Source: Halopiger goleimassiliensis
GTDB taxonomy: Archaea; Halobacteriota; Halobacteria; Halobacteriales; Natrialbaceae
Direction of reading: 5' to 3'
Assembly (NCBI RefSeq): GCF_000455345.1
Contig: NZ_HG315690.1
Span: 1,811,360-1,875,359 of the forward strand
DNA length: 64,000 nt
The stretch's first letter is position 1; each line of letters begins with the position of its first letter. Under the pieces are notes generated by a model. It saw nothing but the letters and a program-made list of their open reading frames with translations, was not told the origin of the DNA and ran no database searches. Made by a program: the position numbers and the translations under genes. Shown here piece after piece: positions 11,574-44,261 of the stretch.

Positions 11574-12260
11574 TTACCGCCTGTCGTCACCGATGACGTC
11601 GTCGTCATCGTCGTCGCTCATGAGACCCTCGTCGTCATCGTCGTCGCTCATGAGACCCTCGTCGTCATCGTCGTCGCTCATGAGACCCTCGTCGTCATCG
11701 TCGTCGCTCATGAGACCCTCGTCGTCATCGTCGTCCCTCATGAGGCCTTCGTCGTCACTTCGTCTTCCCTGGTCGTCGTCACCGATCAGGTCGTCGTCGC
11801 TGTCGTCGCCCATCATGCCCTCGTCGTCGCCGATGATGTCGTCGTCGGTGTCGCGGCTACCGCCGGTCGTGCCTGCGCCGCCGCTCCCGGTCGTCTCGGT
11901 GCCGGGTCGGGGTTCGGATCCGCCGGTATCCATGCCGGTGTCAGTTCGACCACCGGTCTCCGTCCCGGTGCCTGTACCAGTAGTGCCCGTTCCGGTTCCG
12001 GTGTCGGTTCCGCGACCCGAGAGGTCGCTCTCGAGGCGGACCTCGTCGTCGGTCACCGTCGCGACGGATTGCTCCTGGAGCGGGTACGTGTCCTCGTCCG
12101 AACCGCCCCAGCCGAGTTTGGCCTTGATCGTGTCCGTAATGCCTGGGTCGGCCTCGACGTGAGCGGTGCCGTGTTCGACGTCGGCGACGATGCCGACCTC
12201 CTCGCCGTCCGCGTTGACGACGGTCTTGCCGATGTCGTCGTCGGTGAACTCGGGTGACAT
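11574..12260 (-). CDS. PRC-barrel-like protein with Thr/Gly linker and tandem acidic decapeptide tail
   Basis: The first ~85 residues (MSPEFTDDDIGKTVVNADGEEVGIVADVEHG) form a PRC-barrel-like domain of a type widespread in haloarchaea. A Thr/Gly-rich linker (about 95-150) follows, then a tail of about 70 residues dominated by Asp with the repeat DDDDDEGLMS. I start at ATG 12260 because the PRC domain begins there; the open frame upstream encodes basic, non-halophile-like sequence. The tail is encoded by 30-bp DNA repeats, several of them identical. Function is unknown; the tail could bind cations or a basic partner. Confidence 0.8.
   Translation of the reverse strand: MSPEFTDDDIGKTVVNADGEEVGIVADVEHGTAHVEADPGITDTIKAKLGWGGSDEDTYPLQEQSVATVTDDEVRLESDLSGRGTDTGTGTGTTGTGTGTETGGRTDTGMDTGGSEPRPGTETTGSGGAGTTGGSRDTDDDIIGDDEGMMGDDSDDDLIGDDDQGRRSDDEGLMRDDDDDEGLMSDDDDDEGLMSDDDDDEGLMSDDDDDEGLMSDDDDDDVIGDDRR
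11601..11760 (-). repeat. 30-bp in-frame tandem repeat (acidic decapeptide units)
   Basis: Four consecutive 30-bp units (11611-11640, 11641-11670, 11671-11700, 11701-11730) are identical on inspection. A diverged fifth unit follows at 11731-11760 and a partial unit lies on the left. Each encodes DDDDDEGLMS on the minus strand. Identity at third codon positions points to recent expansion by slippage or unequal recombination. Confidence 0.9.
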
Positions 12261-34836: not shown

Positions 34837-34925
34837 CTCCGCGGAGCGGTTCCTGGGGTTGCGAGTCGACCACTCGAGTCGTTGCGGGACGGCGGCCGCC
34901 TCCCGTTCGAATCCCTCTAATCGCT

Positions 34926-35108
34926 TTGCTCGTCACGAAACCGTTCGTCGGAAAAGCGGGCCGGGCGCGATTTGAACCACGCCGAGACGTACCTGCTCGT
35001 TCGCTCCGCTCACTGCGCGGGCTGCGACTCGTCTACTTCAAATCGCTGTAGCCGCATTGCTCGTCACGGCATTGGTCGGACCAAAAGCGGGCCGGGCGCG
35101 ATTTGAAC
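34926..35108. repeat. Direct repeat of the tRNA-Lys 3' end and downstream flank
   Basis: The 26-bp sequence at 34952-34977 is repeated exactly at 35083-35108, where it is the 3' end of the tRNA-Lys gene plus flank. Twelve further bases, TTGCTCGTCACG, also recur at 34926 and 35057, again at an offset of 131. The left copy has no tRNA body. This resembles an attachment-site scar at a tRNA gene. Confidence 0.8.
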
Positions 35109-35161
35109 ACGCGACCGTCTGATTAAGAGTCAGACGCTCTGCCGGACTGAGCTACCGGCCC
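35088..35161 (-). tRNA. tRNA-Lys (anticodon CTT)
   Basis: On the minus strand a full cloverleaf is visible: acceptor GGGCCGG/CCGGCCC with discriminator G, D-arm GCTCAGTCCGGCAGAGC, anticodon arm TCTGA-CTCTTAA-TCAGA (anticodon CTT), and T-arm with GTTCAAATC. No CCA is encoded and no intron is seen. An AT-rich TATA candidate lies about 27 bp upstream. Confidence 0.96.
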
Positions 35162-43164: not shown

Positions 43165-44261
43165 TGTGCGTCTAGTGCTTCTCTGAACGCGGGGACGTTT
43201 ATCTCTTCCATTTGTTCGCGGTACCCCCAGCCCTCGTCGGCCCAGGAGGCGAGCGTTCCCGAGACCGTCGAGAGTGCCATCGCGTCGGTCGCGTCGCTGC
43301 CCTCGAGGATCGTCTCGACCGCGTCGGGATACTCGCCTTCGGGTGCGTCGAAGGCGTCGTAGAGGATCGTGTCGATCCCCGCCTCGTCGATGAGTTCGAT
43401 GGTCTCGGAGATGTCCGCGTGGTCGGGCTCTTCCTGCGGCGAGACGCCGATCGGCGTGTGGATCTCGAACCCGTAGCGCTCCTCGAGGTAGGTAAAGGAG
43501 TCGTGGCCGGCGAGCACGACCGTGTCGTGGTTCGCCTCAGCGACCAGTTGCTCGAACTGTTCGTCGATCTCCTCGAGGACGGCCCCGTACTCCTCCGCGT
43601 TGGCCCGGAACGTCTCCTCCTCGTCGGGGTGGGCCTCCGCGAGGCCGTCGGCGACGTTTTCGACGATCTCCTCGGCGATGACCGGGTCGAGCCAGGCGTG
43701 GGGATCGACCGACGCCCGGTCGTGGTCACCGTCGTCGTGCTCGTCGTGGCCTTCCTCTTCGTGGTCGTGGTCGTGACCGTCGTCGTGGTCGTGGTCCTCC
43801 TCGTGATCGTCGTGTTCCTCGTCTCCGTGGTCGTCGTGTTCTTCGTCCCCGTGGTCGTGATCGTGGCCCTCGTGGTCCCACTCGAGCAATCGGTCGTCGA
43901 GCCCTTCGAAGCAGTCGACGACGATCACGTCGTCGTAGTCCTCCTCGAGGGTCGTCGCGATGTCCTGTGCCCAGGCGAACTCGGGCGTGTCGAGATAGAG
44001 GAAGAGGCCGGCGTCGGCGACGTTTCGAGCCAGGTCCCCCGGCGGGTTCCAACCGTGGCCCGACTCTCCGGTTCCCACCGGATTCTCGAAGGCCATCACG
44101 TCGCCGCCAACCTGCTCGGCCCAGTCGTACAGCGCGAAGAGCGCGGCGTACCCCGTTTCGTACTCCCGATCGGCAGCGCCGACGTCGTCGAGACAACCGG
44201 CGAGCGTGCCCGCCGCGAGGAGGCCAGCGCCCCCCAGCAGCGAACGTCGCGTGTGGTTCAT
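43161..44261 (-). CDS. znuA: Metal ABC transporter substrate-binding lipoprotein (ZnuA-like) with His/Asp-rich loop
   Basis: The 366-residue cluster A-I binding protein starts MNHTRRSLLGGAGLLAAGTLAGC: a twin-arginine-like lipoprotein signal with lipobox at LAGC. Residues about 130-185 form an extreme His/Asp/Glu-rich loop (repeats of HDHD, HDDH, HDHE), a zinc-ZnuA trait. Conserved ligands follow in VDPHAWLDP and LAGHDSFTYLEERYG. The loop argues for zinc. Transcription starts the operon with znuC and znuB. Confidence 0.93.
   Translation of the reverse strand: MNHTRRSLLGGAGLLAAGTLAGCLDDVGAADREYETGYAALFALYDWAEQVGGDVMAFENPVGTGESGHGWNPPGDLARNVADAGLFLYLDTPEFAWAQDIATTLEEDYDDVIVVDCFEGLDDRLLEWDHEGHDHDHGDEEHDDHGDEEHDDHEEDHDHDDGHDHDHEEEGHDEHDDGDHDRASVDPHAWLDPVIAEEIVENVADGLAEAHPDEEETFRANAEEYGAVLEEIDEQFEQLVAEANHDTVVLAGHDSFTYLEERYGFEIHTPIGVSPQEEPDHADISETIELIDEAGIDTILYDAFDAPEGEYPDAVETILEGSDATDAMALSTVSGTLASWADEGWGYREQMEEINVPAFREALDAQ

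Follow-up and report, generated by a model that had tools for sequence, protein, structure and literature searches.

The 26-bp repeat beside the tRNA-Lys(CTT) gene in the window (the whole stretch of 64,000 nucleotides of Halopiger goleimassiliensis DNA that was analysed) belongs to a unit that recurs, with the sequence of the respective tRNA, behind many tRNA genes of the order Halobacteriales. These units share a regular anatomy, are specific for the tRNA that they follow, are spread across the order, and differ as whole units between relatives. With moderate confidence, we interpret the repeat as one unit of a tRNA-anchored, RtT-like cassette array that is renewed by recombination at tRNA-end repeats. 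A one-locus curiosity of E. coli thereby becomes a wider architecture tied to tRNA genes as integration sites, and dozens of tRNAs per genome in hundreds of genomes offer natural replicates for asking what the units do. The units also bear on tRNA 3'-end integrity in integration hotspots and on the tracking of a tRNA sequence by a downstream hairpin.

The repeat beside tRNA-Lys(CTT)

The tRNA-Lys gene (anticodon CTT) lies on the minus strand at 35087-35161 (ARAGORN; Rfam RF00005, 67.7 bits). An earlier sequence-only reading of the locus had reported a 26-bp exact copy of its 3' end at a distance of 131 bp, lacking a tRNA body, together with a 12-bp match at the same offset, and each of these points is confirmed. 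The 26-mer AAAAGCGGGCCGGGCGCGATTTGAAC forms an exact pair at 34952-34977 and 35083-35108, separated by 105 bp, with these two occurrences in the whole 64 kb, and the 12-mer TTGCTCGTCACG is found at 34926-34937 and 35057-35068, again 131 apart. In the repeat search, a single 72-nt pair with a spacing of 131 is obtained, in which 57 of 72 positions (79%) are identical. In the same search, the T-arm turns up again in inverted orientation (TTCAAATCGC, 35037-35046), a feature that the earlier reading had overlooked, as it had the same arrangement at the second tRNA-Lys gene (TTT) of the genome, where copies of that tRNA's own 3' end lie 213 and 344 nt downstream. The tandem array that had been offered as one option is thus seen at tRNA-Lys(TTT), and in relatives as well. 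A chance origin of the repeat is ruled out because it recurs at other tRNAs, each time with that tRNA's own sequence.

Anatomy and folding of the unit

On the tRNA strand, the parts follow one another as tRNA, TTTT, a spacer (the H1 position), the inverted T-arm GCGATTTGAA, an inner hairpin, TTCAAATCGCGCCCGGCCCGC (the direct copy of the tRNA 3' end), TTTT, and a decayed second unit, all on the minus strand of the window. The original of the 26-bp repeat (35083-35108; exact copy test) comprises the tRNA 3' end, from T-loop to discriminator, plus TTTT. The H1 position (35047-35086, placed by eye against relatives) comes next; many copies at other places have a tandem-GA hairpin there, and in this one it is degenerate. 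The hairpin H2 has as its 5' arm the inverted T-arm copy (35037-35046; repeat search and covariation), as its inner part AGACGAGTCGCAGC ... ACGTCTCGGCGTG (34978-35036; fold z), and as its 3' arm the direct copy of the tRNA 3' end with TTTT, without a tRNA body (34952-34977; repeat search and exact copy test). Farther out, the H1 stretch of the decayed second unit (34915-34951; exact copy test) contains the 12-bp match at 34926-34937, and AGAGGGATTCGAAC at 34906-34919, as read from the sequence, is probably the remnant of that unit's inverted T-arm, its closing direct copy having been lost.

H2 (34967-35046) is more stable than its shuffles, both as RNA (z -2.31) and as DNA (z -2.86). Neither the window's H1 (35047-35086; z -0.60) nor the H1 stretch of the second unit (34915-34955; z +1.57) is more stable than its shuffles, and the minimum free energy structure of the whole 131-nt unit does not have the H1+H2 shape. 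Since H1 does not fold and the complete unit does not adopt this shape, the window unit is best regarded as a worn copy.

Covariation between the arms was measured over 279 haloarchaeal units: on average, 9.28 of the 11 positions in the 5' arm of H2 pair with the direct copy, a figure that drops to 8.15 (sd 0.045) once arms are shuffled among units (z=25). Accordingly matched arms are carried by tRNAs with other T-loops, namely GAATTGAA for TTCAATTC, GATTCGAA for TTCGAATC, and GGTTCGAA for TTCGAACC. Pairing of the arm peaks at positions 54 to 61 and weakens outward; 42 of 232 units score high for an arm that continues into the acceptor part, where 6.6% would be expected.

A strand test for folding as RNA or as DNA, carried out in three versions, gives a mixed result. 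Where a unit's direct copy is intact, transitions in the T-arm stem lead to G.T (25/713) more often than to A.C (8/1127), as expected if the tRNA-sense strand folds, although two positions dominate. In the inner stems there is no G-U preference: G.T and A.C number 13 and 10 for H1 and 65 and 61 for H2, and the anchored counts are 7:7 and 4:1.

The H1 loop and the H2 apex often take the form stem-GA-(AC or GC)-loop-(GT or GC)-GA-stem, and GNA triloops (GAA, GGA, GTA, GCA) are frequent behind tandem G-A in the apices of haloarchaeal units. Loops of the GNA type behind tandem G-A are very stable in DNA. A kink-turn or K-loop reading of H1, made by eye only, was set aside, as the inner pair varies between A-T and G-C in the sequences inspected.

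Own-specific units behind other tRNA genes

Three genomes, each from a different haloarchaeal family and the first of them the window's own, were compared; a copy of the gene's own 3' end follows 25 of 42, 24 of 43, and 16 of 45 tRNA genes, respectively. A copy was counted when a stretch within about 330 nt downstream differed from the tRNA's own T-loop-to-discriminator sequence at no more than 5 of 20 positions, whole tandem tRNAs being excluded; the denominators are the ARAGORN tRNAs in the pieces examined, from which tRNA-Trp and some intron-containing tRNAs are absent. The same criterion applied upstream, as a control, yields 1/42, 1/43, and 1/45. For the same flanks, the mean number of mismatches of 20 is 4.2, 4.2, and 5.3 against the own ends, versus 8.2, 8.1, and 8.3 against the ends of other tRNAs. 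In two other genomes of the phylum, which we guess to be methanogens, none of 32 tRNAs has a true own-end copy, a count that sets aside three of 16 tRNAs flagged in one of them (G353), two being whole tandem tRNAs and one a 5-mismatch chance match.

About 40-65% of the tRNA genes have no unit. Those without one in all three genomes include three Ala genes, Gln-CTG, Thr-GGT, Thr-TGT, Ser-GCT, Leu-CAG, and Arg-TCG, and the carriage of a unit tends to recur at the same tRNAs across families (p 0.007, 0.19, and 0.008). Haloarchaeal units are shorter than 300 nt in 283 of 284 cases and mostly measure 100-140 nt, and the direct copy is free of mismatches in 165 of 281 units (admitted at up to 4 mismatches). 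TTT follows the last copy in 57 of 192 cases, versus 98 of 192 after the tRNA. A stricter pattern, consisting of T-arm, inverted T-arm, and T-arm at fixed spacings with a single T-loop sequence, has nine matches in the window's own genome, every one of them at a tRNA gene (eight at listed tRNAs and one, by eye, at tRNA-Trp), and the two haloarchaeal megaplasmid matches examined adjoin tRNA-Ser and tRNA-Val genes. This tRNA-Trp gene (L009:738-908) has a long intron, on account of which ARAGORN missed it; it is also absent from the list of the tRNA search, and it is followed by a unit.

Taxonomic distribution

The strict pattern occurs in 204 of 293 genomes of the order Halobacteriales, representing 63 of 78 genera, and the reversed pattern, used as a control, in 0. 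In a sample of the phylum, it is found in 15 of 28 genomes inside the order and in 0 of 118 outside it. A Lys query matches all 125 genomes of the family, which is no evidence by itself because the query includes the tRNA.

A scan of named genomes with the strict pattern returned at least 118 stretches, mostly from haloarchaea, two Haloferax loci (L190 and L207) being among them. Among the matches listed, 19 carry non-haloarchaeal titles, and 11 of these stretches look unrelated. Also among the matches listed, five non-haloarchaeal units adjoin a tRNA: two from candidate-phyla bacteria (L186, L223), two from Woesearchaeota (L136, L160), and one (L149) titled only 'Euryarchaeota archaeon', which may be close to haloarchaea. 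Of the others among the matches listed, L188 is partial, L226 is an array with no tRNA in the piece examined, and L137 is a tandem full tRNA. Own-3'-end copies are present at further tRNAs in a Taylorbacteria genome (2/11), two Paceibacterota (3/12 and 2/5), two Woesearchaeota (2/6 and 1/7), and the Euryarchaeota record (5/7), these counts covering the tRNAs in the few loci fetched from the genomes with non-haloarchaeal units and from that of L226; some of the copies have no clear H2, e.g., L423 (Phe) and L443 (Ile). In four loci of candidate-phyla bacteria (L186, L223, L423, L437), a motif like CTGAACATGTAATGTTC or CTGAAACTGTAAGTTTC, which would form a further small hairpin, lies near the direct copy; such a motif was not seen near it in haloarchaea. 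As for virus-borne units, the five pattern matches in a viral collection all look unrelated, and none is a unit at a tRNA.

Unit turnover and islands at tRNA-Lys(CTT)

Behind the same tRNA-Lys(CTT), the units of relatives differ in inner type and in number. The clearest case is a pair of loci, L022 with the order tRNA-H1-H2a and L029 with tRNA-H1-H2b-copy-H1-H2a, the latter longer by one 131-bp period; their downstream flanks are 94-97% identical, and the register shifts between H1 and the inverted arm. In L031, an extra proximal unit is present relative to L356, and the register shifts at the sense T-arm; this pair is weaker because the sequences beyond the array diverge. The register shifts of these whole-unit differences fall at the repeated T-arms, and ordinary slippage between repeats could be an alternative source of the differences. 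The count of 41/65 for tRNA-Lys loci, from which five Lys(TTT) loci were left out, is not a rate, since the Lys loci compared were the best-scoring ones and L336-L355 were chosen for a lost flank.

Islands delimited by the same sequence occur within the family, where the proposal that tRNA-Lys(CTT) serves as an attachment site is borne out. A search of 18 genomes located a second core on the same contig and strand at about 6.2 kb (G063), 34.4 kb (G067), 36 kb (G042), and 38.6 kb (G094), so that four islands of 6-39 kb sit between tRNA-Lys(CTT) and a copy of its 3' end (loci L406-L412). A tyrosine recombinase gene is found at the far core in all three islands checked (G063, G067, G042); the encoded proteins match Pfam PF00589 (Phage_integrase) at 1.1e-8, 5.4e-7, and 5.6e-17, as well as PHROG integrases. 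In all four islands, the unit sequence then follows the far core. Because the unit lies beyond the far attachment copy in every case, it was resident before the island arrived, and because the islands insert between tRNA and unit, tRNA-Lys is an integration site and the window copy a resident cassette. Islands ending in the 26-bp sequence, which the earlier reading had suggested looking for, therefore exist in four instances, yet they use tRNA-Lys itself, and the unit moves away together with the old 3' end. That reading had also reasoned that a copy conserved across the genus, with no insertion ever found there, would speak against an attachment site: the copy is indeed conserved far beyond the genus, but insertions do exist at this place. 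For annotation, a partial tRNA 3' end near a haloarchaeal tRNA should be treated with caution, as it is often a resident unit and not the end of a genomic island.

In L336-L355, which were selected for a non-matching downstream flank, foreign sequence mostly stands directly behind the tRNA. The tRNA-proximal ends of L342, L343, L353, and L355 resemble each other, as if related elements had visited several genera.

Comparison with known systems

To our knowledge, the two-arm design is otherwise known from a single E. coli gene cluster. There, the RtT/RttR repeats of tyrT-tyrV (RF00391), for which the work of Boesl and Kersten is said to be the primary source, form tandem units behind a tRNA, each ending in a direct copy of the 3' end of that tRNA, and an inverted copy, GGGGAAGGAT, closes a hairpin with the direct copy, the same arms being paired in the Rfam consensus. 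Haloarchaea show both traits: the unit behind a tRNA ends in a copy of that tRNA's 3' end, and the inverted copy forms a hairpin with it. Behind tyrV, copies of the tRNA-Tyr 3' end lie at 155, 333, and 511 nt, giving a period of 178; unlike the haloarchaeal copies, they include CCA and have a damaged T-loop. A further difference is that haloarchaeal genomes contain versions specific to many individual tRNA genes, with closure over the T-arm. The one E. coli locus examined (L452) contains four RtT matches, annotated as the small RNA RttR, three of them behind tyrV; the fourth (L452:1364-1495) lies between the two tRNA-Tyr genes. RF00391 has no match in six haloarchaeal genomes, the window shows no RtT up to an E value of 1, and Rfam finds only tRNA above the gathering threshold in the window. 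These searches rule out identity with an RNA known to Rfam, and, given the shared arms and the missing RF00391 match, the haloarchaeal units are RtT-like in architecture but not members of RF00391.

In integron arrays, each unit ends in a hairpin site (attC) with inverted arms, and the units stand behind a fixed first site. The haloarchaeal units are similar in their arrangement as an array behind a fixed first site and in the inverted arms at the end of each, which may form a comparable folded site, but their length leaves no room for genes and their arms follow the tRNA. Integron membership is ruled out, as no match to the integron integrase model TIGR02249 exceeds the cut-off in 21 genomes, the weaker matches being read as general tyrosine recombinases.

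In archaea, tRNA 3' ends are attachment sites, as reviewed in PMC8371274, and the Haloquadratum islands described in PMC3119063 have tRNA repeats of 22 and 43 nt and a partial copy of tRNA-Thr at their boundaries. Haloarchaeal islands of tRNA-targeting tyrosine recombinases are similar in that they attach at a tRNA 3' end and have a direct copy of that end at their far side (PMC8371274, PMC3119063). The units differ from such islands in being mostly 90-180 bp long, in having an inverted T-arm, in offering no room for a recombinase gene, and in lying outside the islands. The palindrome-associated transposable elements (PATEs) of Haloquadratum (PMC3119063) are also short and non-coding with hairpins near both ends, whereas the units are bound to tRNA 3' ends and duplicate them. 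Dispersal away from a target gene, as for MITEs or PATEs, is not seen in the nine strict matches of the window's own genome or the two plasmid matches. The accessible part of PMC7714728 lists Haloferax circular RNAs without mention of such a unit. A literature search that covered a minority of the subscription journals found no description of the haloarchaeal units.

Origin and function of the units

Recombination between repeated copies of a tRNA 3' end agrees with the order of the parts, the own-specific arms, and the changes by whole units. In the cassette interpretation, which we hold with moderate confidence, a unit would span the tRNA T-loop and acceptor end, the H1 position, the inverted T-arm, and H2, closed by the next direct 3'-end copy. 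Recombination at the T-arm repeats would add units, lose them, and keep them matched to the tRNA, probably with help from tyrosine recombinases of the kind that attach at tRNA 3' ends; insertions would survive only where they rebuild the tRNA 3' end, and transcription may extend from the tRNA into the units, which would then fold in the manner of E. coli RtT. This interpretation is weakened by the failure of the window's H1 to fold and of its whole unit to take the H1+H2 shape, the missing integron integrase, the lack of a unit at a tRNA in the viral collection, slippage as an alternative, the tRNAs that carry no unit, and the mixed strand test. A bolder version, in which T-arms are the landing site of a recombination system and cassettes carry a folded site of inverted and direct T-arm, forming a non-coding counterpart of integron arrays in haloarchaea, some DPANN, candidate-phyla bacteria, and E. 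coli RtT, is speculative and rather unlikely in our estimation.

The units might instead be a functional part of the pre-tRNA, which we consider a real possibility albeit clearly below an even one. H1 and H2 would then fold in RNA, processing enzymes would meet a tRNA-like 3' end in H2, from which a predicted small RNA would arise, and matching to the tRNA would be kept by gene conversion under selection. The architecture shared with RtT, a repeat that has a small-RNA annotation in E. coli and presumably yields such an RNA there, agrees with such a role, as do the drift of the T-arm stem to G-U over A-C on the tRNA-sense strand, the folding of H2 beyond its shuffles, and the tendency of the same tRNAs to bear units in different families. 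It is harder to reconcile with the absence of the G-U preference from the inner stems, the many tRNAs without a unit, the variation of unit type and number at one tRNA between relatives, and the lower frequency of TTT after the last copy than after the tRNA. An origin without function, in which the direct copy arises by plain duplication or as a by-product of integration and template switching during replication perfects an adjacent quasi-palindrome into the inverted arm, would suit the match of that arm, which is closest over the T-arm beside the inner hairpin and fades outward, with a high-scoring acceptor extension in only the minority of units given above. We regard this origin as improbable, however, because it leaves unexplained the regular H1-H2 order, the inner types shared by different tRNAs, and the persistence of similar units across genera (e.g., G086, with 88% identity over 279 nt including the tRNA itself). 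The proposal of the sequence-only reading that the repeat is a scar, the attachment-site remnant of a lost element integrated at the tRNA-Lys 3' end, can draw on the direct repeat of that end and on the relatives, in which tRNA-Lys is a real attachment site and four islands share the terminal core. It has nevertheless become very improbable: own-specific units with hairpin and inverted arm stand behind many unrelated tRNA genes throughout the order, the unit is outside the island in four of four cases, and both megaplasmid matches examined also adjoin tRNA genes. Nor does the locus hold an element remnant that is absent in relatives, a comparable stretch being present in relatives and behind other tRNAs.

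Other features of the window

Two further repeats were observed in the window. A 30-bp tandem repeat at 11599-11764 (5.6 copies, 96% matches) lies within overlapping open frames on both strands, and overlapping short tandem repeats with periods of 6 to 45, rich in GTC/GTG, occupy 43718-43877.
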